In this document: piece by piece, positions 2,142-57,226 of the stretch
How positions within the stretch are numbered: position 1 is the first letter of the stretch
How the letters are laid out: every line of letters begins with the position of its first letter
NCBI GenBank assembly: GCA_028283145.1
Contig: JAPYNY010000027.1
Location: forward strand, 1 to 58,879
Reading direction: 5' to 3'
DNA length: 58,879 bases
Origin: Candidatus Hopanoidivorans cymbastelae
GTDB taxonomy: Bacteria > Actinomycetota > Acidimicrobiia > Acidimicrobiales > Hopanoidiivorantaceae
Notes under the pieces: model-generated
Told to the model about the DNA's origin: nothing
Seen by the model: only the letters and a program-made list of their open reading frames with translations
Databases searched by the model: none
Translations under genes and position numbers: made by a program

Positions 2142-4889
2142 TTAATGATATACAGCCGAAGCAGCAGGGGAACTGGCTCCAACCACTCTGGTAGAGCCAG
2201 CCTGAAGCTGTAAAGCATCATTGTGGGGTGGGAACGATGCCAAATACTCACAGGGAGCGCCGACACCTTGAATTCGATCTATCAAACGTGGACTTTCCGA
2301 AGTGTAAGAACTGCCAGTGCTGGAGATCTGCAAAATCACCTCAAGCGCCTGTGTGCAGTTATTGTTTGAAGCCGCAGTTGGACTGAAACGAACTATAAAT
2401 CTTTCATCTAAATAAATGTTATTTCCACTGCTGTCATTCACCTGAGGCACCTCAATAGACACAGTGGGGCTAAACCAAGTGTGATAAACATAAGTAGCCG
2501 AGACAGCAGGAGCAGCAGCCGTGACCACAGTAGAGCTGCTTTGAGCATTAGGCCTAATCACCACGCCCTTGCCCAAAGTTTCATCTGAAGTGCCTATTTC
2601 TGATATAAACACCTTGTAACTACATCTCACATCTGTGCCCGCAGGTCGGTCTACCAAAATAGGCAAAGAGGAATTCCCAGCCAAAGACACCGCACCATTG
2701 GCTGAAATCTTAAAAACCTGTGCAGTAGACCTAGAGCAGCTAGCATTGGAGCCAGGCACTGGAATAAAGGAAACTGAAGGTCTAACATTCCTTTCTGAAA
2801 AATCACTCACTCCGTTCGCATTATCATCAAACCATGGAACTGTGGCTGTAGTTTGGGGTGTGAATTGGGTATTATAGTTGGCTGTAACAGCCGGGGCGGC
2901 GGCGGTGATGGTCAAGGTGGTGGCGGGTTGGAGGCTTAGTAAGTTCTTCTGAGGTGGGAACGTCACGTTGTATGAGCATCGGTTTTCTACGCCTTCGGGG
3001 TGGTCTATGAAGATAGGAATTATCGAGCTGTAGGAACGCAAGTCTGAAGTGTATGTCCTAACTATGTAGGAGTTCCCTTCAGGAGTGATGCCAACTATCA
3101 CTTGCGCTGGTTGGGTGCAGCCACTGCTGGAACCCGCAGTTGGGCTGACTTGCACATTGAAGAATAAGCCTGCGTAGTCATTGCCTCCTGCCCCATCAGC
3201 ATCAACTTGGGGAACAGCAATAGACACCGACGGCTGAAATGTGGAAACAGGAGCTATGTAAGAAGCGGAAACAGCAGGAGCAGCGGCACTGAAGGAAGGG
3301 CGGCTGTTTTCCCTGGTTCCGTATCGGGGCAGCAAAACAGATGCAGGGGTATTCAACTGCAACAACCCCATCGTATATTTGCACCTAAAAGGTGACTCAG
3401 AAGGCCGGTCCACCAAAGCAGGAAAAGAAGAATTATCAGCCAAAGACACCGAACCATCATCGCCCACCACAAACACTGAAGGAGCAACGCTCGTAGGGCA
3501 AGACCAAAAAGCTCGGCTACTTCCCGACCTAGAAAAATGAACAGTGAACCGCTGCCCGGAGAAATCATTCACACCATCCCCATCATCATCAAATTGCGGA
3601 ACCGTGACAGCCACAGAGGGGGAAAATCTAGTAGTGGACTTGCCGAAATAACCTGCAATGCTGGTAACCGCTGAAATTGAAATAGTACTATAGGTGGGAG
3701 GCTGTCGCAGCCTTAAAGATCCCACCCGAGACGGCAACGACACTTGATACGAACACCTATCACGCGAACCGGTAAGCCAGTCCGCCAAAGCAGGCAAAGA
3801 GGAATTATCAGCCAAAGACACCGAACCATCGTCTCTAACGACAAATACTGAACTGGCAGGTTCACTGCAATGAGCCCTGTCTGCAGTATTGAACGTATTG
3901 AACGTTTTGCGGAACCCAACAGTGAACCGCTGCCCGGAGAAATCATTCACACCATCCCCGTCGTCATCAATCCTAGGGACTTCCAGAAAAGAAATCTGAG
4001 GATAAAACACAGAATCATAAACAGCCGAAACCAAGGCAGAACCGGCACTGACAGTCACCGCAGCAACATCACGCAACTTCAAAACGCCCACCCGAGACGG
4101 CAACGACACATCATATACACATCTCACATCTTCACCAGCAGGGCGGTCCACCAACGTAGGTAAAGAAGAATTCTCAGCCAAAGACACCGAACCACCAGCC
4201 ACCACCACAAACACCGAACTGACAACCCCAGAACACCCACCATTAGAACCCGCAACAGCCTCAAACCCAACCACAAAAGTCAAACCCAAAACATCACCCA
4301 AATCACCACCAAAACCAGGAACCGCAATAGAAACAGAAGGAGAAAACACAGAATTAGTGCCTAGAAGGTATGTAGCAGACACACTAAGGCTAGCAGCGTA
4401 CACACTAAAGCTAGTACTGGGCTGCAAAGCCAAGGAACCTACCATTTGAGGAAATGCCGCTAAATATTCACACTGGGCATCAAGACCAGCAGGGCGGTCT
4501 ACCAAAGATACCTGCGCATCGGTTGATACCGCACCGCTGTTGGATACAGTGTAGTTTGAAGTGGCTGTTTGAGTACATCCGCTGTCAGAACCTGATATTG
4601 GGGCAAAACTGATTGTGAAGATCTGTTCTGAAAAGTCGTTCACACCATCCCCATCGTCATCGAATTGCGGCACCGTGATAGACACCGATGGCGAAAACAC
4701 AGAAGCAGTCTGAGCGGAAACGGAACTTGCCAAGAAACCAAATATGAACAAAAAAGAAGCAAAAATTCCAACTACGCCAACAAAGCTAAGCAATAGCAAT
4801 CTTTTTGCACCACATACTCCTTCTTGATGGGTAGCAGAAAAGAGCAGCAGTTTAATGTGGCCCTTCCTATTGGACATAAACTTTAACAT
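2142..4889 (-). CDS. Large secreted protein with seven tandem ~120-residue modules
   Basis: Protein of 915 aa. A hydrophobic segment ending VSAQ (about residues 30-60) is followed by seven tandem modules. Each opens with a line such as FSPSVSITVP, usually followed by an acidic loop of the DDDGDGVNDFS type in modules 1, 3 and 4 (degenerate in the others). Each then carries a Cys, and later an L-x-DRPxGxxxxCxY line and a short beta-rich end (xVSAxY). The acidic loops resemble calcium-binding D-x-D-G-D-G motifs, so a Ca-stabilised surface protein is plausible but inferred. The signal peptide region aligns with its neighbours' MKRLL, but here that Met codon reads GCA (AKRLLLL). The protein therefore begins about 29 residues earlier at a weakly supported start, or at an internal TTG near 4796. 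No family is recognised. Confidence 0.85.
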   Translation of the reverse strand: MLKFMSNRKGHIKLLLFSATHQEGVCGAKRLLLLSFVGVVGIFASFLFIFGFLASSVSAQTASVFSPSVSITVPQFDDDGDGVNDFSEQIFTISFAPISGSDSGCTQTATSNYTVSNSGAVSTDAQVSLVDRPAGLDAQCEYLAAFPQMVGSLALQPSTSFSVYAASLSVSATYLLGTNSVFSPSVSIAVPGFGGDLGDVLGLTFVVGFEAVAGSNGGCSGVVSSVFVVVAGGSVSLAENSSLPTLVDRPAGEDVRCVYDVSLPSRVGVLKLRDVAAVTVSAGSALVSAVYDSVFYPQISFLEVPRIDDDGDGVNDFSGQRFTVGFRKTFNTFNTADRAHCSEPASSVFVVRDDGSVSLADNSSLPALADWLTGSRDRCSYQVSLPSRVGSLRLRQPPTYSTISISAVTSIAGYFGKSTTRFSPSVAVTVPQFDDDGDGVNDFSGQRFTVHFSRSGSSRAFWSCPTSVAPSVFVVGDDGSVSLADNSSFPALVDRPSESPFRCKYTMGLLQLNTPASVLLPRYGTRENSRPSFSAAAPAVSASYIAPVSTFQPSVSIAVPQVDADGAGGNDYAGLFFNVQVSPTAGSSSGCTQPAQVIVGITPEGNSYIVRTYTSDLRSYSSIIPIFIDHPEGVENRCSYNVTFPPQKNLLSLQPATTLTITAAAPAVTANYNTQFTPQTTATVPWFDDNANGVSDFSERNVRPSVSFIPVPGSNASCSRSTAQVFKISANGAVSLAGNSSLPILVDRPAGTDVRCSYKVFISEIGTSDETLGKGVVIRPNAQSSSTVVTAAAPAVSATYVYHTWFSPTVSIEVPQVNDSSGNNIYLDERFIVRFSPTAASNNNCTQALEVILQISSTGSSYTSESPRLIDRIQGVGAPCEYLASFPPHNDALQLQAGSTRVVGASSPAASAVYH

Positions 4890-6658: not shown

Positions 6659-8936
6659 ATGGAATGGTTATAGCCACCGAGGAGGCGTTGAAGATGAAGA
6701 CAGCATCCTCTGGGCTGATGACATCAAACCACGGAACAGACACCGACGGCAACTGCTGGCGGCCGGGCAGGAAATAGTTCCACGCCTGGGCCTGGCTGTC
6801 CCAGCGGTACACCACCGGAATCAAATCGGCCTGAGGCCCCAGCAAGCTCTCAAGCGACCTGGAAGCAGCTCCGCCAAACACTTGGAACGAATATCCCGGC
6901 GGAATCGTCAATCTGCCTGTGGCAGCCGGGGTGTTGAGCAAGGTGGCTGGATTGTATGTTACTCGGCTGGCAGAAGGCACATAGGCCATGACGATGTCAC
7001 CTCTAGTAAGGCTGGTCAAACCCAGCGACCCTTGTCCGGCAGCCCAGCCTCTCCAAGATTGCGTCTGGGCATTCCACACCCACAATGCAGCAATGGCATT
7101 GTCTAGCTCCCTGGCGAAGGCCTGCGGCGTGGTGCCTGTGATGCCGTTGAATGGCAGTGTGATCCAGCCCTGCGACAGAAACGAACTGCCTGCGCCGGGA
7201 GTTGGGTCGGGTGCAGTGTCTGGAGTGGTGCTTGTGTCGCCATCGGAGCCTGTGCCTCCATCGGTGCCATAGGAAGTGCAGTCGTATTGAAGCGCCACGG
7301 TGATGAGATTGGTATTGGCAGCCCAAGTGGTTTCCACAAAGGCCCTGCCAGAACTGTCTCGCTGAGCGTTTCGGATGGTGCAACGTTCAAAAGCCGAAAG
7401 CTCAGTAGCCCTGACGGTGCAGCTGATTCTTTGATTGTTGACAAATACATAGGGTGGAAGGCTATAGGAAGCGGCCGGGTTGACCGACCGGGCGTTAGGC
7501 CCGATGGCGTAGGTGAGGCCTGGCACGATAAACATTCCATACTGCACCCCGACACTGGCCGACACGCCGCCGAAGAGAGAAGTATCGCTGCCGCAGGGGC
7601 CTGGAACAGTCACATGCAAGTCAATGGTTTGGTCGGTTCTGAAGATGCTGCCACGGGGTGCAAAGACTTGCAAAGCCACTCGCACGGGGATACGACGCTG
7701 GGTGTATCTAAAGTCCACGTTGATGCGAGCCGCGCCACGAGTATCAAACTCTCTGACGCTTGGCTGATTGCCGGCCAGCTGCAGAGCCGTTGAGGTAGCT
7801 GCGGCAGTTATCTTGTAGGCGCAGGTGGTCGTAGCGCCCCGCGGGACTTGAACGATGTCCAAAGTGGCGGGATTTGAGGCCGACCCTTTGAATTCCGTGC
7901 GCTGAGTGCAAGCCGCGCTTTGCCTGTTGTCCAGCGGCTCCACTGTGAAGGTAACCTGCTCGCCGCCAAACAGAGACCTGTCGGCTGCGGTGGCCAGCTG
8001 CACATTCGCAGTCAGTCTGATCTCTTGCTCACAGACTCCCGATTCGGCTGAGGTATTGCTAAAGCTGAGGTCTATGCGATTGATGAGCTTGCCCCCCACG
8101 GCAGCAAAACTCCCCGCCTGATGAATAAAGAGTTCTCCGTCTGAGTCCACGGCATGGGTTCCGTCTGCAAAATAAAGGATGGCATCAACCCGGCAACCCG
8201 AAGTGGCCACATTATCCACGGGGGCGACGTCCAACCGCCAGTTGCACCTGAGGTCAAGCACTGCGAATGACCAACCCGAACGCTCAATCACCTCCAGCGG
8301 ATTGTTCCTGGTGGAGCAGTTGCCGAATGGGGTGTAGGTGGCTCTGTATCGCTCGGTGCTCTCAAGGTTGCGAATCTGCACCAACTGCTGGGTGGTAACA
8401 GCAGCGGGATGGGAGCAGTCGGCGGGCGTGATGGTAACCACCCTGGCTGCTGTCAAGTCTGAAAAGGCACCCACCCGCGATGAAAAATTCGGAGAATCCG
8501 TGCCTTCCAGGGTGAAAGAAGAGCCGGTCTGGTCGGTGATGCCTTCGCCTCTGTTGATGGTGAAGGAACAATCAGACAGGTTGGAATTGATAGTTACGGT
8601 GTAGAGGCAGGTGACTTCATCGTTGTTGGCGACGTTGGTTGGAGTTGGGTCGTAGTTGGTGATGAAGTTTCTGCTGGCACTGGTGCCGTTGGCGAAAAAC
8701 CTGAGGGGGGTTATAGGAGTGCAGCGCTGGGTGTTGTTGGCTGAAAAAGCCAACTGAAGGCTGGGAACGGAACCCGCCGTGGGGGCCGACACCACGAAGT
8801 TGACCCTGGTTATAGCTTGGGTGCTGCTGCCGGGCGTAGCAACTGCTGAAGCTGGGCTGGCCACCAAAGCTATAGCCACCAACGCTGAACTCAAAACCCC
8901 GACAATCGCCAAAACGCTAACTAATGTTCGTTTCAT
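6651..8936 (-). CDS. Secreted multi-domain protein with Trp-rich C-terminal domain
   Basis: Protein of 761 aa with signal peptide MKRTLVSVLAIVGVLSSALV, cleavage near PASA. The middle region has several Cys-pair modules related to the neighbours (for example CTQRTEFKGS and PRGATTTCAYKI). A linker rich in Gly, Ser, Asp and Pro lies near residues 555-585. The last ~170 residues are a distinct domain with repeated Trp motifs (FLSQGW, LWVWNAQTQSWRGW, YRWDSQAQAWNYF) and end in IPWS. Such paired W-x-x-x-x-x-x-W lines suggest a beta-rich binding domain, but I cannot name it. It is the first of four paralogous minus-strand genes and has its own upstream region. Confidence 0.85.
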   Translation of the reverse strand: MKRTLVSVLAIVGVLSSALVAIALVASPASAVATPGSSTQAITRVNFVVSAPTAGSVPSLQLAFSANNTQRCTPITPLRFFANGTSASRNFITNYDPTPTNVANNDEVTCLYTVTINSNLSDCSFTINRGEGITDQTGSSFTLEGTDSPNFSSRVGAFSDLTAARVVTITPADCSHPAAVTTQQLVQIRNLESTERYRATYTPFGNCSTRNNPLEVIERSGWSFAVLDLRCNWRLDVAPVDNVATSGCRVDAILYFADGTHAVDSDGELFIHQAGSFAAVGGKLINRIDLSFSNTSAESGVCEQEIRLTANVQLATAADRSLFGGEQVTFTVEPLDNRQSAACTQRTEFKGSASNPATLDIVQVPRGATTTCAYKITAAATSTALQLAGNQPSVREFDTRGAARINVDFRYTQRRIPVRVALQVFAPRGSIFRTDQTIDLHVTVPGPCGSDTSLFGGVSASVGVQYGMFIVPGLTYAIGPNARSVNPAASYSLPPYVFVNNQRISCTVRATELSAFERCTIRNAQRDSSGRAFVETTWAANTNLITVALQYDCTSYGTDGGTGSDGDTSTTPDTAPDPTPGAGSSFLSQGWITLPFNGITGTTPQAFARELDNAIAALWVWNAQTQSWRGWAAGQGSLGLTSLTRGDIVMAYVPSASRVTYNPATLLNTPAATGRLTIPPGYSFQVFGGAASRSLESLLGPQADLIPVVYRWDSQAQAWNYFLPGRQQLPSVSVPWFDVISPEDAVFIFNASSVAITIPWS

Positions 8937-51261: not shown

Positions 51262-51450
51262 TCAAACTTGCAGTGGATTACCCTTCAATAATTTGTGGAG
51301 ACCTGTTCTGCTATGAGACTGAAGACATCTCAGATATTGCTTTTTGGTTTTTCCGTTTGTGCTGCATCTATAATCTATCTGAATACCATACTCTGCTTCA
51401 ACGAGTCGCTTGGGCAGCGGCACAAGTTTGTCAATGCTTGCTTCTTGCAT
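51262..51450 (-). CDS. Small reading frame after the restriction gene, doubtful
   Basis: Sixty-two codons from an ATG at 51450, overlapping the end of the restriction gene by 20 bases. The sequence (IDKLVPLPKRLVEAEYGIQI) has plausible amino-acid use and could be a tail left over from a longer C-terminus of the enzyme. There is no ribosome site and no family match that I can name. Confidence 0.3.
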   Translation of the reverse strand: MQEASIDKLVPLPKRLVEAEYGIQIDYRCSTNGKTKKQYLRCLQSHSRTGLHKLLKGNPLQV

Positions 51451-54400
51451 TGGATAGCGTGTGCCTGTGTGCTAGGCGGTAGGCTTGCTGAGTTCCGGCT
51501 GCGCATAGGTCTGTGACAATTGGTGTGGCCAGCACTCCGAAAACAGCTTTGTTGGAAGGACAGGTGACCGCTATTGGGACGGTTATCTGGGTAGCGTCCG
51601 TGTCGCCCCTGTGGTGCCAATCATATTCAAGTCTGTCAGAACCGTTGTCGCCAACACTGCCTGAATTGTCCTGCCTGACGGTGTGCTTATCAATATCGCC
51701 GGACGAACGCTCGGGTTTGCCGACCCGTGGCGCAGAGATCGAACATTCCTCGGTTGCCCAGTATCCCGAATGGAAGTTGTCGCGTGTAGATAACCAAGAT
51801 TGCCCCCCCCCCGTTATATTGTCGTCGGCAAAACTCTGGTTCCTGCTGGAATCAAATGCAGATCCGGCAAAAGAGTCGTGGACATCACCACCGGTAAAGT
51901 TACGTTGGATGTTCCGCTGATCAATATCGCTGCGGAATGCCTCGCCTGCCGCCGCTGCTGTGAACGTCGAAGATGGTTTTGATTGCGAGGGGCTGGAACT
52001 CTGTCTGAGATGATCCCCTCCAAGTGAGCCACGAGTAACCCCCCCCCCGTTGAATAATTCTGTTACTTTGGTTCTAGCCAAAATATCAGGATCAAGATAG
52101 AGCCACATTTTTCTGAACGGGCGGTAGAGAACTCGAGTAATTTTGCTGTCTTCAAAAACCAAGCCCTTTTTTGCTTTCAGCCTCTGAACAAGAGACTCCG
52201 TCCATTTAATACTATGAAGGTTATAACTAGTGGTCAGTTTATCTAGGTGATCTTGGGTTGGGTTTTGAATATAAAGTGCTAAAGTCTTGTTGTACTCATC
52301 AATGAGTGCTATGGCTTTATGCTGAACTTCACTTCTTGAGAAGGCATACACATAGGTATCGCATCCAGTTGTAATTCCTGGAGCGTGCTTACTAATCAAA
52401 GTGCCTTCACTGCTACCTGATTTCTCAGGACACAGTGTGAGCATGTCTTCCCATCCGGGTGTGCCAGGGTTTGACCATGACCATCTGTCATTCATCGGAA
52501 TTATTTGAAACTTAGGGCTTAAGATATCACCTAGTTCTGATAGCCACTCAAATTTTTGGTCTCGATTTGAATATTCTGGTATCTCCAGGTAGTGAAGCAT
52601 TGCAGGTGTTTCCTTATTTTTCAGTGGATTGCGCACCAATATAGTTGTTTGAACCCCACTTCGGGTTTCGCTTCCAAAAATGTTATCGCCCTCTTTCTTG
52701 CGTTCTTCGCCACTCTTGTAAGCATTGCCTCTCAGGTTCACCACATAAATGTCAGTGAATTCATCATGCAAGCACTTGCGTACCCCTGCTAGAGATGTTC
52801 CATCATACAAGCTATTAGGAGATACAAAAGCGATGATAGCAGGGGCAGGCTTTTCTTCTGCTTTCTGGTTGCCATTGATGCGGTCTGATGCCCAGCGAAA
52901 CGCTTGAACGTAAGTGTTGCCAGCTGCGTTGCCACCAAGTCGCCTATTTGAAATTTTCTTTTGACTTTCTACGTATGTTTCCTTGACCCGGTCGGCAATA
53001 GCTTTGTATTTTGTTCTGGGATTGTCGTCGGAAGCGCTGTCCTGCCCGGATGACCAAGGTGGGTTGGAAGCAATCACCTGTATGGAAAGCTGGTTTTGCT
53101 TCTGAACTCGTTCGGGGTTGCCGTCTTTTCGCTCAAACATTTCGGAGGCTCTCGCAGCCAAATTTTCATTCATCAAGAAAGTGTCAGTCAGCACAATGTT
53201 CTCAAAAGGCTCATATTTGGCTTGGCTGTTTGGGTTAGCTTCTTGCTCGCGGCTGTGCTTGGTCTCCTCTATCTTTAAGGCAGCGATGTAGTAGGCCAGC
53301 AAAATCAACTCGTTGGCGTGGATTTCGTGGTTATATTTCCGGGCAAGGTCTTCGTCACGGATGAGATAATTGCCTTGGCTGTCCTTGCCTGTCAGGAGTC
53401 GGCTTATGAATGTGCCAGTGCCGGCAAAAGGCTCCAAAATATTGACGCCTTCATCAGTCAGCCCCTTGCCAAACTCACGGCGGCACACAGCATCAACCGA
53501 ACGCCAGATGAAATCCACCAGCTCTACAGGCGTGTAGGCGATGCCCAGCGCTTCGACTGCTTTTTTCATAGCAGCATTGAAGAACCCATCGTAAATCTCC
53601 CGCAAAATGTCCAGCTTGTCTTGGCTGCTGACTGCGCCTTGGAAAGCCCTTTCCATCGTTTGATAGGCGCGCTTCAGCGGGCGCAAATCCTCCTCAAACT
53701 TCCCGCCTTGAGCTTCAAATATCCCGATCAGCTTGTTGATGCTGATAGAGACAGGATTGCTGGATACAAAATCCGATCCGGAGAACAACACGTCAAAGAC
53801 AGGAATTGTCACGATGTGCTGAGCCACCATTTCCTCGGCTTGCCGATATGAAACATCAGGGCTGACAGCGAGGCGAATTTCACTCAAGAATTCGTCAAAA
53901 GCGTCCGCTGAAGCATTGGGCAGCCCGCCTGCCCGTGAGATGAGAACCGACACACGCTGGCGGATTGTTTCGCATATTCTGGCAGCTTGTTCGCCCCAGC
54001 GTGGATACAACTGCCGATCGCCACATTTACTTACCAACATTGAAGCGAAGTTTTGCGCTAAGGCTAACGACAACTGCTCAAAGGTGTCACGGGCGACTTT
54101 GGTGTCGGCGCCATTTGATGCGCTATTTGTTTCGGTGTCTCGGTTGGCAGATGGGAATTTGGTGGTGCGTAGCCTGAAGGTTGTGGTCTGCTTGGCGGTA
54201 TGCGGGTTGTTCAGCCAATAATCAATGCGATCATCATGTGAACGCAACGCCCGCGCTACTTTCCAAACAGCGCTGAAATCGCTGCTGCTTAAAATCTTGT
54301 CGGCGTGAGAAATACGAGCGTCCTCATCCTCAACGTCAACCTCATGCACTGGTATCACTACCGGAATGATGATGTAGCCCTTTTGCTTGCCCGGGGCCTT

Positions 54401-56431
54401 GCGCATCACCCGGCCAACTGCTTGGGTGATGTCCAACTCGGACGACCGCGGCTCCAAAAACACAACCGCATCCAAAGCCGGCACATCCACGCCCTCCGAT
54501 AGCACCCTGGCGTTTGTCAAAACACGACATGTCGTGCTGCTGCCTGTGGAATTTTGGGAGTCGCTGGGATTGCTAGGAGCGATGTCTGCGACGTCTATCA
54601 ATTTCGGGCTGGAGCTGCTTGGATTCAGAGCCTCCAAGTTGCGCAGTCTTTGCAACAAGTCGGCACGCTCATTGGCGGGTGTGTGGCTATCAAGATGGCG
54701 AACGTCAATTCCCAAAAAATCGCCAGTTGCGTATCGGTCGGAGATTGTTGCGTGCCGGCCGGAACCAGTCGCAGGCTGGTCGGCACCACTCTCGTGCCGC
54801 CCGGGGCCAGTTGCATGTTGTGCAACATCAGCCGCGTGCCGCCCAGAAATCGCTTCGGCAACTTTCTGCCAGTGCAAGGCCGCCTGTTTGGAATTCCTCA
54901 CGGTGTTGCAAAACGCAATGGCAGACCGGGCGGGTGCCCCCCACTCAGGGCGCAACTCGCCTGGTTTGCGGTCGCGGTCAAAACTAATGGTCTGCGGCGT
55001 AGCCAGCGCATCCCAGCTACCGGCCAGCTTCACCGCCGCGCTGGTGGAAATCATCTCCTTCAGCCCAGGGTCATCATGCGCCAAGCTGGAATCCTCCAGC
55101 GACTGAAGGTAAGACCTCTCATCAGCCGCGATGACAATCACCTCATAATCAGACAGACAATCCGCTTGCAAAGCATCGGCAAAAGACATCTTGAAGAACT
55201 CATCGCCATATCGGTCGGGATCGTCCATTGAATAACTGAATTCGTCCTCATAGATTCCCTCATCAATTTTCTTGCGCTGCTTGTCGGTGAAAATCCTGGG
55301 GGTGGCCGTCATGAACAATCGTTTGCTGGCGGGTAGGTGCTCGTTGTGGTGGATCAGCTGGAACGGGCTGATGCCGTGATAGCCCTTGATGTTGTCTTTC
55401 TTGCTGTGGGCTTCGGAAATTCCAGTGGTGCGGTGGGCCTCATCGCAGATGACCAAGTCAAAATGGAAATGGGGCAGGCTCTTCAGCGCCTCAGCAATTT
55501 TAGGCGTGGAATGATAGGTGGAGAAAATAACCCGTATGTGGCCAGCCAGAGGCTTGCGAGCCAATTGCTCGGCCACTTTTTCGGCGTCTGTGGTGACGGG
55601 AATGGCGAGTTCGGTCAAGTTGCCAGCCGTGGAAGCGTCGTCGGTAGCTTTCAGGCCGGTAGTGACATCTGAGCACACGCCCAGATACTGCATCGCCAGA
55701 CTGCGCTGCTGCGACCACTCGCGCATAGTCTGCCCCATGAGCGCAATGGACGGCACTAGATAGAGCACATCGGTGTTGGCACCAGCTATTTTCTCGGCAG
55801 CATGGAGGGCCACCAAACTCTTGCCCGATCCGCAGGGCATGATCAACTGACCTTTGTTGGCTTCGGTGAAGCCTTTGTCTATCTTGAGAACAGCTTCATC
55901 TTGATACTCACGCAGTTCATGCTTTTCAAACTCAATTTTCAGCGGCTGGCTTTCGTCCTTGAGATAGATGCGCCAATCGCTGAGCCAACCGTCCATTTCC
56001 GAAGTGCGCAGAATTTGGCACTGCGGGGATGCTTTTTCTAATTCTTGGAGGCCTACCTTGGCAATCTCACGACTTGAAACAATAAGCCGCGAAGTGAAAA
56101 AATCGGTTCCGGAAGCGCCTAAAAACGAATCAACTTCAGCGGTGGAGACTTCGCTGTCGCCGAACTTGACTTGAATGGCAACAAGCCCCCCCCCCGTGGC
56201 TTGTGTCTCTTTGGCGACCAGATCTATGCCAATGTCTTTAGCGGAGTAGCCGTGTTTTTGCCGGTCGGGCCAATCTCTCCAAAACCAGATTGTCTCAAAC
56301 CGCTCCTGGCCGAATATCCCAGGATGGCTTTCTAGGGCGGTCTTGACGAACTTCTCAAACCGCCTGCCCTCCTTGACTCGGCTGGGGTCGTCCTCGCGGA
56401 GGGTTCTTATGACTTCTTCGATGTAGGCCAT
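51431..56431 (-). CDS. Single-chain restriction-modification enzyme, type ISP (LlaGI-like), with three G10 tracts
   Basis: Protein of 1,666 aa in the order of LlaGI/LlaBIII: Mrr-like nuclease (GIDLVA, D70; AIQVKF, Q87/K89), SF2 translocase (MPCGSGKSL near 200, CDEAHRTTG near 327, QAVGRVMRKA), helical coupler, N6-adenine methyltransferase (LEPFAGTGTF near 1000, NPPW near 1120), and the start of the specificity domain (YRPFRKMWLYLD near 1434). Such enzymes methylate one strand and cut after head-on translocation. G10 runs on the coding strand lie at residues 80-82, ~1462 and ~1540. After 1462 the main frame is Ser/Gly-rich and does not look like a specificity domain. A repeat-rich loop (RHATGPGRHES-like) sits near 525-567. 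It starts directly after the TAG of the upstream gene. Confidence 0.9.
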   Translation of the reverse strand: MAYIEEVIRTLREDDPSRVKEGRRFEKFVKTALESHPGIFGQERFETIWFWRDWPDRQKHGYSAKDIGIDLVAKETQATGGGLVAIQVKFGDSEVSTAEVDSFLGASGTDFFTSRLIVSSREIAKVGLQELEKASPQCQILRTSEMDGWLSDWRIYLKDESQPLKIEFEKHELREYQDEAVLKIDKGFTEANKGQLIMPCGSGKSLVALHAAEKIAGANTDVLYLVPSIALMGQTMREWSQQRSLAMQYLGVCSDVTTGLKATDDASTAGNLTELAIPVTTDAEKVAEQLARKPLAGHIRVIFSTYHSTPKIAEALKSLPHFHFDLVICDEAHRTTGISEAHSKKDNIKGYHGISPFQLIHHNEHLPASKRLFMTATPRIFTDKQRKKIDEGIYEDEFSYSMDDPDRYGDEFFKMSFADALQADCLSDYEVIVIAADERSYLQSLEDSSLAHDDPGLKEMISTSAAVKLAGSWDALATPQTISFDRDRKPGELRPEWGAPARSAIAFCNTVRNSKQAALHWQKVAEAISGRHAADVAQHATGPGRHESGADQPATGSGRHATISDRYATGDFLGIDVRHLDSHTPANERADLLQRLRNLEALNPSSSSPKLIDVADIAPSNPSDSQNSTGSSTTCRVLTNARVLSEGVDVPALDAVVFLEPRSSELDITQAVGRVMRKAPGKQKGYIIIPVVIPVHEVDVEDEDARISHADKILSSSDFSAVWKVARALRSHDDRIDYWLNNPHTAKQTTTFRLRTTKFPSANRDTETNSASNGADTKVARDTFEQLSLALAQNFASMLVSKCGDRQLYPRWGEQAARICETIRQRVSVLISRAGGLPNASADAFDEFLSEIRLAVSPDVSYRQAEEMVAQHIVTIPVFDVLFSGSDFVSSNPVSISINKLIGIFEAQGGKFEEDLRPLKRAYQTMERAFQGAVSSQDKLDILREIYDGFFNAAMKKAVEALGIAYTPVELVDFIWRSVDAVCRREFGKGLTDEGVNILEPFAGTGTFISRLLTGKDSQGNYLIRDEDLARKYNHEIHANELILLAYYIAALKIEETKHSREQEANPNSQAKYEPFENIVLTDTFLMNENLAARASEMFERKDGNPERVQKQNQLSIQVIASNPPWSSGQDSASDDNPRTKYKAIADRVKETYVESQKKISNRRLGGNAAGNTYVQAFRWASDRINGNQKAEEKPAPAIIAFVSPNSLYDGTSLAGVRKCLHDEFTDIYVVNLRGNAYKSGEERKKEGDNIFGSETRSGVQTTILVRNPLKNKETPAMLHYLEIPEYSNRDQKFEWLSELGDILSPKFQIIPMNDRWSWSNPGTPGWEDMLTLCPEKSGSSEGTLISKHAPGITTGCDTYVYAFSRSEVQHKAIALIDEYNKTLALYIQNPTQDHLDKLTTSYNLHSIKWTESLVQRLKAKKGLVFEDSKITRVLYRPFRKMWLYLDPDILARTKVTELFNGGGVTRGSLGGDHLRQSSSPSQSKPSSTFTAAAAGEAFRSDIDQRNIQRNFTGGDVHDSFAGSAFDSSRNQSFADDNITGGGQSWLSTRDNFHSGYWATEECSISAPRVGKPERSSGDIDKHTVRQDNSGSVGDNGSDRLEYDWHHRGDTDATQITVPIAVTCPSNKAVFGVLATPIVTDLCAAGTQQAYRLAHRHTLSNARSKH
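51803..51812 (-). repeat. G10 homopolymer, third tract of the restriction gene
   Basis: Ten C on the plus strand, in frame as Gly-Gly-Gly near residue 1541. A length change selects between C-termini that stop at 51431, 51583 or 51690. Confidence 0.9.
52039..52048 (-). repeat. G10 homopolymer, second tract of the restriction gene
   Basis: Ten C on the plus strand, in frame as Gly-Gly-Gly after VTELFN (near residue 1462). Loss of one G or gain of two leads to the stop at 51814; gain of one leads to a stop at 51921. Confidence 0.9.
56186..56195 (-). repeat. G10 homopolymer in the nuclease motif
   Basis: Ten C on the plus strand encode Gly80-82, between the catalytic Asp (D70) and Q-x-K (87-89). 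Slippage here would truncate the whole enzyme and so act as an on/off switch. Confidence 0.9.
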
Positions 56432-57226
56432 CTACTTGCGCCTTTCAGTTGAGGGCTTGGGGTCGCCAGCTGCATCAAGGTTGATGGAAGCTGGCAAGCT
56501 AGCAATAATCTCGGCAGATTTCACGCTCACATACACCAGACGCCTTAGATGGCGGATCAGTTCAAACGGGTTGTCGGCCCACTCTTCGCAGGTGTTGGGG
56601 TCGTCGGTGATGCCTGACCGTTTGTCTTCTTTGTGGCGAAGGCTGTCAACTTCCCATTCCAAGGGCGAGCGGCCTGAGACTGTGTAGTTGTGCGCTTGGA
56701 GCGGGATGTTGATTAGTTCGCACCTTGGGTTGATGACAAGTCTGGTTTTGTCGAATTTCGGGGCGACTTCGGAACTACGACTGTCATCCTGGTTTTGGCT
56801 TTCGCTTTCGCTCAAATCTGCTATGCCTGGAAGGTTGAACTTGCTCCAGCGCATCCGGTCGGCAATTCTGTAAACCTCCGGATCGGCGGCATCGTCTTCA
56901 GATGGTGTGCCGTCCACCTGGCAGACAACTTTCCCATATTCCGGGCAGGACTCATAGCCTGTGTGGAGATCCATCAACTCCCGGCCAGCATCCCGGAAAG
57001 CCGCAAAATCAGGAGCCAGCGGGACTCTAGGCAGGCTCTCCCGCAAATCCTTGGCGTAGGTCTTACGCCAGTCGGGAGCGTGCATCACCCCGTAGATGTA
57101 AAACCAGATGTCATCCTTAGAAATGGAACTGTCTTGGTAATGCCCGCGGAACTGCTCTGCCGCCCAGTTGGTAACGTTGTCTTGCCGTTGCGCTTCTGGC
57201 GTCTCAATCATTGTAGTCTGCGACAA
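56432..57226 (-). CDS. Separate C-terminal specificity-domain subunit of the type ISP enzyme
   Basis: Protein of 264 aa. The lines RQDNVTNWAAEQFRGHY, DDIWFYIYGVMHAPDWR, LPRVPLAPDF, NIPLQAHNYTVSGRSPLEW and SGITDDPNTCEEW are those I know from the very C-terminus of type ISP and related helicase-methylase proteins, where they follow the PDL/FP line inside one chain. Here they form a free-standing gene whose TAG stop directly abuts the ATG of the nuclease-helicase-methylase gene. This is a split and order-reversed layout. The two products should associate to recognise DNA. The start ATG follows GGAGGTAGAAATTTT on the coding strand, a strong ribosome site. C-terminal residues about 240-264 are variable. 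Confidence 0.8.
   Translation of the reverse strand: MSQTTMIETPEAQRQDNVTNWAAEQFRGHYQDSSISKDDIWFYIYGVMHAPDWRKTYAKDLRESLPRVPLAPDFAAFRDAGRELMDLHTGYESCPEYGKVVCQVDGTPSEDDAADPEVYRIADRMRWSKFNLPGIADLSESESQNQDDSRSSEVAPKFDKTRLVINPRCELINIPLQAHNYTVSGRSPLEWEVDSLRHKEDKRSGITDDPNTCEEWADNPFELIRHLRRLVYVSVKSAEIIASLPASINLDAAGDPKPSTERRK

Follow-up and report, generated by a model that had tools for sequence, protein, structure and literature searches.

The subject of this analysis is a restriction-modification gene with three long guanine tracts in Candidatus Hopanoidivorans cymbastelae, an actinobacterium of the order Acidimicrobiales, carried on a 58,879-nt stretch of DNA (contig JAPYNY010000027.1 of GenBank assembly GCA_028283145.1, positions 1 to 58,879) that was analysed at its full length and is hereafter called the window. 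One open minus-strand frame at 51431-56431, encoding 1666 amino acids (aa), spans three plus-strand runs of ten C (51803-51812, 52039-52048 and 56186-56195), which read as G10 in the gene. A preliminary description of the window had pointed out these runs, and its coordinates, run lengths and single 1,666-codon frame all proved exact, as did its remark that no other ten-base run of G or C is present, the next longest being 8. In 300 dinucleotide-preserving shuffles of the window, G or C runs of at least ten bases arose with a mean of 0.140 per shuffle and a maximum of 2, and three were found in none; the three G10 tracts are not due to chance.

Past the first of the two 3' tracts (T1), five versions of one segment of about 40 residues, here called cassettes, are encoded in three different frames, each with its own stop. 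The cassettes lie in successive frames f, f-1 and f-2 past each 3' tract, and the other frames stay open up to the next cassette or tract. In gene order, the array reads as follows.

52039-52048, minus strand: G10 tract T1, predicted three-way junction leading to cassette A at G9, to cassette B at G11 and on to T2 at G10
51921-52034, minus strand: cassette B and stop, frame 2 relative to the gene, SWLTWRGSSQTEF...RRGIPQRY, 9.1 bits with the canonical profile
51814-51930, minus strand: cassette A and stop, frame 1, AILISGTSNVTLP...TRVLPTTI, 11.3 bits with the canonical profile
51803-51812, minus strand: G10 tract T2, predicted three-way junction leading to cassette D at G9, to cassette E at G10 and to cassette C at G11
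51690-51806, minus strand: cassette C and stop, frame 2, GAILVIYTRQLPF...AFVRRY, matched by the array-trained profile only
51583-51702, minus strand: cassette D and stop, frame 1, PAILISTPSGRTI...ATRTLPR, 11.3 bits with the canonical profile
51431-51577, minus strand: cassette E and stop, frame 0, the assembled state, PIAVTCPSNKAVF...LSNARSKH, matched by the array-trained profile only

With the nuclease-domain tract kept at G10, the in silico products ending in B, A, C, D and E measure 1503, 1538, 1580, 1615 and 1666 aa, respectively. The cassettes align with the hairpin and the base-reading Loop VI of the LlaBIII recognition domain. The canonical profile used to detect them was built from 72 unsplit Type ISP-like proteins out of 88, leaving out 11 that lack the end motif and five (P0121-P0125) that resemble the C48 paralogue described below. 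It yielded 14 matches of at least 10 bits, in differing frames past tracts, in the window, in a paralogue on contig C52 of the same genome and in the two arrays of a same-genus genome (G001); 1,000 shuffled arrays gave no match at this level, 26 of at least 4 bits and two of at least 8, with a maximum of 8.5. Slips in the two 3' tracts very probably pick which of the five likely recognition cassettes ends the protein, and with it the sequence that is methylated and cut. The preliminary description had placed both tracts in the specificity region and expected a slip to change the C-terminus; both points hold, but the predicted outcome is not a mere alteration of the end, because the routes lead to five homologous cassettes.

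A split relative of the Type ISP enzymes

The main gene encodes, in this order, an Mrr-type nuclease, a superfamily 2 (SF2) helicase, a coupler, an N6-adenine methyltransferase, the N-terminal part of a specificity domain and the cassette array, with the motifs PCGSGKS at residue 199, DEAH at 330 and NPPW at 1123. Together with the gene upstream, it comprises the following features.

51431-56431, minus strand: main gene, 1666 aa as assembled (open frame and Pfam)
55952-56308, minus strand: Mrr_cat_2 nuclease domain, residues 42-160 (PF13156, E 1.7e-20)
56186-56195, minus strand: nuclease-domain G10 tract, predicted ON/OFF site from in silico slips
55295-55921, minus strand: ResIII helicase domain, residues 171-379 (PF04851, E 4.6e-21)
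53633-54001, minus strand: ISP coupler domain, residues 811-933 (PF22240, E 8.3e-21)
52049-52396, minus strand: constant N-terminal specificity part, residues 1346-1461 (PF18135 positions 3-106)
56432-57226, minus strand: upstream gene, 264 aa, starting at a TTG that follows an AGGAGGT-like site (open frame and Pfam)

The helicase families PF00270 and PF00271 (helicase C) are found in the window protein as well. N6_Mtase is not listed by Pfam in that protein at 1e-3; it is listed in two relatives (L010 and L059), and the model of a third (L087) matches LlaGI, LlaBIII and other N6 methyltransferases. The nuclease tract, which in gene order is the first of the three, covers residues 79-82 between GIDLVAKE (68) and IQVKF (86), motifs that we take to carry the catalytic residues of the Mrr-type nuclease. 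Its placement there in the preliminary description stands, as does the expected truncation, the in silico products measuring 103 aa at G9 and 98 aa at G11. At about residues 535-562 the window protein has a repeat-like stretch (HATGPGRHESG...ATGSGRHAT) where a homologue, P0209, shows a 28-residue gap, possibly an in-frame, length-variable linker of the helicase part.

The single-chain enzyme of the preliminary description could not be upheld. Of the 342 positions of PF18135 (Type_ISP_C), 3-106 lie in the main gene and 163-338 in the upstream gene, whose end directly precedes the main-gene ATG and whose product scores E 4.8e-47 against this family and matches LlaGI, LlaBIII and DrdV. A search of the PDB with the constant part of the window specificity domain returned LlaGI as its sole match, and alignment to LlaGI puts the equivalent of Loop V at about residues 1450-1457, directly ahead of T1, the loop numbers being those of PMC4872093 and the numbering offset of 164 being inferred from the LlaBIII alignment. 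Nuclease, SF2 helicase and coupler occur in one chain with a gamma-class N6-adenine methyltransferase (NPPW), as in Type ISP enzymes, whereas PF18135 is not contained within the same single polypeptide. Because this domain is split over two genes, the enzyme is, by its domain composition, a two-gene relative of Type ISP and not a member proper. Among 779 candidates, in a search restricted to similar length, 396 were stand-alone or fragmentary relatives of the upstream protein, some of them named Acidimicrobiaceae or Candidatus Poriferisodalis. A 12-sequence structure prediction reached a mean predicted local distance difference test score (pLDDT) of 50.7 and was not used.

Cassette arrays in related loci

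Genome contigs were scanned once with an alignment built from 24 upstream proteins of the stand-alone kind, which gave 49 related loci. The array layout occurs in 40 of them, and with the window and the C52 paralogue this amounts to 44 arrays and 170 cassettes; no array was found in the other nine (L089, L101 and L106-L112), several of which are contig-end fragments. The arrays belong to Acidimicrobiales and to contigs of metagenome-assembled genomes labelled Dehalococcoidia, Thermoanaerobaculia and OMG group. The array-trained profile was built on the 109 cassettes that the canonical profile had found in these same loci; on the reverse strands it gave 14 matches of at least 12 bits, all within four reverse-strand arrays.

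How regular is the layout? Neighbouring cassettes with no intervening repeat, spaced 104-191 nt apart, are offset by a frame step of -1 in 100 of 102 cases, by +1 in two and never by 0 (an earlier count with a cruder repeat window gave -1 in 101 of 105). The two +1 steps occur in L100 and in L105, the latter with a C7 run at that point. Where a repeat intervenes, steps of +1, -1 and 0 number 12, 9 and 3. All 85 junction repeats have a unit not divisible by three (65 mono-, 14 di-, five tetra- and one pentanucleotide; no unit of 3 or 6), some of them probably being assembly noise, as L076, L086, L095 and L097 each list several homopolymers. Junctions without G/C tracts are occupied by (CGAC)n, (CGAA)n, (GGAGC)n, (CT)n, (AG)n or (AC)n, and a repeat precedes the first cassette in 37 of the 44 arrays. 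Paths from a repeat to the cassettes behind it are open in 61/61 cases for the first cassette, 52/55 for the second and 32/33 for the third, against 78/183, 27/165 and 5/99 in reverse-strand controls. Behind a pair of cassettes, the remaining frame continues without a stop to the next repeat in 17 of 18 cases; behind a single cassette, just one of the other two frames is open in all six.

Among the 84 nearest cassette pairs, differences at codon positions 1, 2 and 3 number 404, 256 and 774, a pattern consistent with purifying selection in the frame of the cassettes (the comparison covered 167 of 170, omitting the pair of array L088@8052 and one cassette cut by a contig end). The residues at the known base-reading position vary among cassettes (H, C, A, N, S, K and others). 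No near-identical pair of array DNAs that would allow a direct comparison of tracts was found among these loci. The closest were L090/L096 (90.2% over 892 nt) and L090/L092 (96.6% over 295 nt); within L088, an exact match of 740 nt arose because one stretch was extracted twice. The pair L064/L069, equivalent to L059/L060, i.e. the two G001 arrays, is 88.6% identical over 316 nt, which suggests cassette exchange between loci. In L098, the main gene has an in-frame TGA at about 8448 where its relatives have tryptophan (PFTKM*LYYN, asterisk for stop), followed by cassettes in frames 0, 2 and 1.

Several observations weigh against the proposal that tract slips select among cassettes. With the canonical profile alone, cassettes C and E of the window were not recovered. 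Seven of the 44 arrays lack a repeat ahead of the first cassette; two of these start at a contig end (L072 and L083) and five do not (L064@4005, L088@8052, L092, L098 and L100). Paths to a fourth cassette are open in 0/2 cases and to a fifth in 1/2, and in L090, where five cassettes follow one tract, the last two seem out of reach. A main frame can be identified in 38 arrays, and in seven of these the frame as assembled leads to no cassette. Owing to the common ancestry of the loci, the counts do not represent independent events, and clustering of the protein list used below at 90% identity biases it towards pairs whose tails differ. Neither is the gene order conserved: the array precedes the gene for the C-terminal domain (CTD) in 26 cases, the order is CTD, main gene and array in 14, and the two lie on opposite strands in four. 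For this last reason, the partnership of the main and upstream proteins is deduced from domain logic.

Phases among relatives and competing explanations

The natural states of related genes are read here from predicted proteins of assemblies. P0218 and P0286 share 831 of 833 aligned residues and diverge at GGG, past which the P0286 form stops after 16 residues without a cassette; P0280/P0286 (99.4% over 700 residues) and P0216/P0283 (97.7%) are likewise alike up to the tract and then continue in different frames, and in other close protein pairs both the sequence and the cassette differ. P0209 and P0210 likely come from the same species as the window, to which they are 98-100% identical in each 60-residue bin over residues 1-1140 (95% in one P0209 bin). 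Identity falls to 63-87% over residues 1141-1440, and the 46 C-terminal residues of P0209 are again 98% identical. The terminal cassette is E in P0209 and A in P0210, and the more distant P0211 has a B-like end, which was identified by eye and scores below 12 bits; three phases are thus seen for the window type of T1. Relative to P0209 and P0210, window residues 1141-1620 form a mosaic allele, a divergent module between near-identical flanks, and the sharp borders of identity suggest that strains also swap the specificity module by recombination.

The gene has non-triplet repeats inside its frame, and close relatives show different phases. The preliminary description had named tract lengths invariant in all relatives as the outcome that would speak against phase variation, and the close relatives are instead in different phases. 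Its proposal of a phase-variable enzyme of Type ISP kind in an actinobacterium is, with the qualification 'Type ISP-like' and as a prediction, well supported by the cassette layout and by the relatives' phases.

Could the arrays reflect plain ON/OFF or C-terminal phase variation, the cassettes being tandem duplicates without individual function? The nuclease tract does fit an ON/OFF site, one near-identical pair includes the cassette-less form P0286, and C-terminal phase variation has precedents (PMC2823697, PMC5320596). We nevertheless regard this explanation as improbable. Each alternative frame leads to a homologous cassette that has a stop of its own, and the substitutions in the cassette frames fit purifying selection. 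Moreover, of the 38 arrays whose main frame is identifiable, 31 end in a cassette as assembled, and all array positions, first to last, are used. Among the 120 listed of 169 homologous proteins, 110 carry a cassette (107 one, three two; none at 12 bits in the other ten), which always ends at most 20 residues from the C-terminus.

Recoding, in which slippage of the ribosome or RNA polymerase at the G tract would give a single cell several cassette forms at once, is compatible with DNA slippage, the two not being mutually exclusive, and runs of identical bases can cause transcriptional slippage. Nonetheless, polymerase or ribosome slippage offers no simple explanation for the CGAC, CGAA and GGAGC repeats at the same junction, and near-identical proteins differ in phase at the DNA level. 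Recoding was therefore rejected as the main mechanism and seems very unlikely to account for the arrays.

Least credible of all is that the arrays are a decaying tandem duplication, the frameshifted remains of a Type ISP gene with tracts that are assembly or mutation noise: despite the messy homopolymers near arrays in some assemblies (L076, L086, L095 and L097) and the in-frame TGA of L098, the -1 steps were measured without an intervening tract and are thus independent of tract length, 145 of 149 paths to the first three cassettes are open, the layout is present twice (L059 and L060) in a same-genus genome that consists of a single contig, and different repeat types occupy the same place. 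Simple pseudogene decay was rejected, and assembly error with it, the frame steps being independent of tract length. A phage origin was also rejected: three viral contig stretches matched a peptide pattern, and none encodes a relative of the upstream protein.

If tracts select the cassettes, slipped-strand mispairing would alter tract length by one or two bases and thereby move the ribosome to another cassette, T1 giving B, A or passage to T2, and T2 giving C, D or E. The cassette reached would complete the core of the target recognition domain, supplying the hairpin and the Loop VI that reads position +3, and the remainder of the domain would come in trans from the product of the upstream gene, which must be separate because every cassette has its own stop. 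The nuclease tract would turn the whole enzyme on or off. Methylation and cleavage would switch together, since one recognition domain is common to both. Sequence directly documents the tracts, the divided domain, the cassettes and their frames, the distribution of substitutions over codon positions and the differing phases of near-identical predicted proteins; we infer in addition that the tracts slip in living cells, that the two proteins join, that the target changes and that cells benefit against phages.

Paralogues and tracts elsewhere in the genome

The genome of the window (G000; 2.33 Mb, 90 contigs) encodes two further homologues of the main gene. The one on contig C52 shows the same domain split and has tracts of 11, 10 and 9 G. 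Its separate gene for the C-terminal domain (L009) is out of phase in the assembly at a G11 tract (about 8026-8036), so that it appears in two pieces (alignment-model positions 12-135 and 134-230); this tract is a possible switch of the trans partner. The paralogue on contig C48 (L010:2912-8257) is Type ISP-like, with the domain unsplit, and has C9 tracts at 3856-3864 in its first cassette and at 3594-3602 between its second cassette and the fused C-terminal domain; a frameshift at the former would stop the protein after cassette 1, without the C-terminal domain. All three related loci of this genome have tracts at their recognition segments, and the same-genus, single-contig genome G001 has the array layout twice.

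The G9 pattern gave 99 overlapping matches in G000, merged by hand into 67 tracts. In seven other genomes it gave 0, 0, 1 and 3 (four of the same order), 113 (same genus), 39 (same family) and 297 (G037, at least partly inflated by contig-end poly-G). Outside the three ISP-like loci lie 59 of the 67 tracts of at least nine G. Stretches fetched from contigs C18, C36, C48, C49, C58, C75 and C87 (L115-L119 and L122-L125) place several tracts in the 5' part of genes for prepilin-like (GITLQTLIVTAVLVL) and large, probably secreted proteins, which looks like a wider set of phase-variable surface genes. No cassette match of at least 8 bits with the canonical profile was found in 20 stretches around other G tracts of this genome. 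For ten of 18 matched genomes the frame of the C-terminal domain can be set beside the number of tracts of at least ten G, which is 18-52 where the domain lies in a short separate frame (G001, G098, G157, G158, G183 and G086) and 0-3 where it lies in a long one (G087, G152, G154 and G191). Among the matches listed, the G-rich strand changes along the chromosome from plus to mostly minus in G001 and from mostly minus to mostly plus in G157, as if tied to replication or gene direction.

Implications and known systems

With somewhat less assurance than the role of the tracts in the window, it is probable that these loci constitute a slippage-addressed DNA-reading library, in which all frames are productive, ternary routers are chained, each gene holds five to seven segments and a domain is shared in trans, maybe serving across phyla to diversify restriction against phages and against each other. 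If so, a hypermutable repeat would address interchangeable protein segments in all three frames, beyond ON/OFF switching. A population would hold one methylation motif per cassette, the motifs differing at one or two positions beside the methylated adenine, and its cells would differ in the DNA that they mark and attack. This would also make contingency loci, which are familiar mostly from pathogens, a main feature of an uncultured actinobacterial lineage. The 170 cassettes also offer a starting set for extending the Type ISP recognition code, which was only partly deciphered in PMC4872093.

LlaGI and LlaBIII (PDB 5ffj and 4xqk) have the same domain order, and the cassettes align with their hairpin and Loop VI; by contrast, each of the two is a single chain whose recognition domain is fixed (PMC4872093). 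In Helicobacter canadensis (PMC2823697) and Neisseria gonorrhoeae (PMC5320596), frameshifts at a 3' repeat give the protein another end, as is predicted here. The alternative ends measure 0-30 residues in the H. canadensis rows and 2-186 in N. gonorrhoeae, and the portions of the two accounts used report neither homology among the ends nor a layout of cassettes in successive frames (PMC2823697, PMC5320596). The pneumococcal SpnIII/SpnIV hsdS loci likewise obtain several target specificities from one locus, via DNA rearrangement, whereas here tract slippage is the presumed means and the alternatives lie within one gene in different frames. NgoAV is reportedly a Type I system and not a cassette array. 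As the title of Adamczyk-Poplawska et al. (2011) states, loss of one nucleotide from a homopolymer in its hsdS alters restriction specificity. A search of open-licence papers, as far as their accessible parts go, found no description of frame-coded arrays of recognition cassettes with a detached domain.

The closest precedent is the specificity switching of the Helicobacter pylori Type IIG enzyme JHP1272/HP1353-HP1354. Type IIG enzymes have no helicase domain, and the present enzyme, with its helicase and coupler domains, falls outside that class. In silico, its 3' tract decides the terminal recognition segment, and in both systems the first homopolymer acts as an ON/OFF site and the second changes recognition, as predicted here. 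In H. pylori, one tract switches the enzyme ON or OFF and a second adds a recognition segment, the motif changing from GGWTAA to GGWCNA in single-molecule real-time (SMRT) sequencing; frameshifts in the Type ISP cluster of strain 26695 are not due to repeats (PMC3936762). The switched element there resembles a four-strand segment of a recognition domain that reads positions beside the methylated adenine (PMC3936762), a role also predicted for the cassettes here. However, one extra C-terminal domain is either added or not, giving two states, whereas the present arrays offer up to seven alternatives in three frames, three-way tracts, di-, tetra- and pentanucleotide repeats, and a separate domain protein. 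Specificity switching by homopolymers was already known from H. pylori Type IIG (PMC3936762); what appears to be new, within the literature searched, are the multi-frame cassette arrays, the chained three-way junctions, the varied repeat units and the detached domain.

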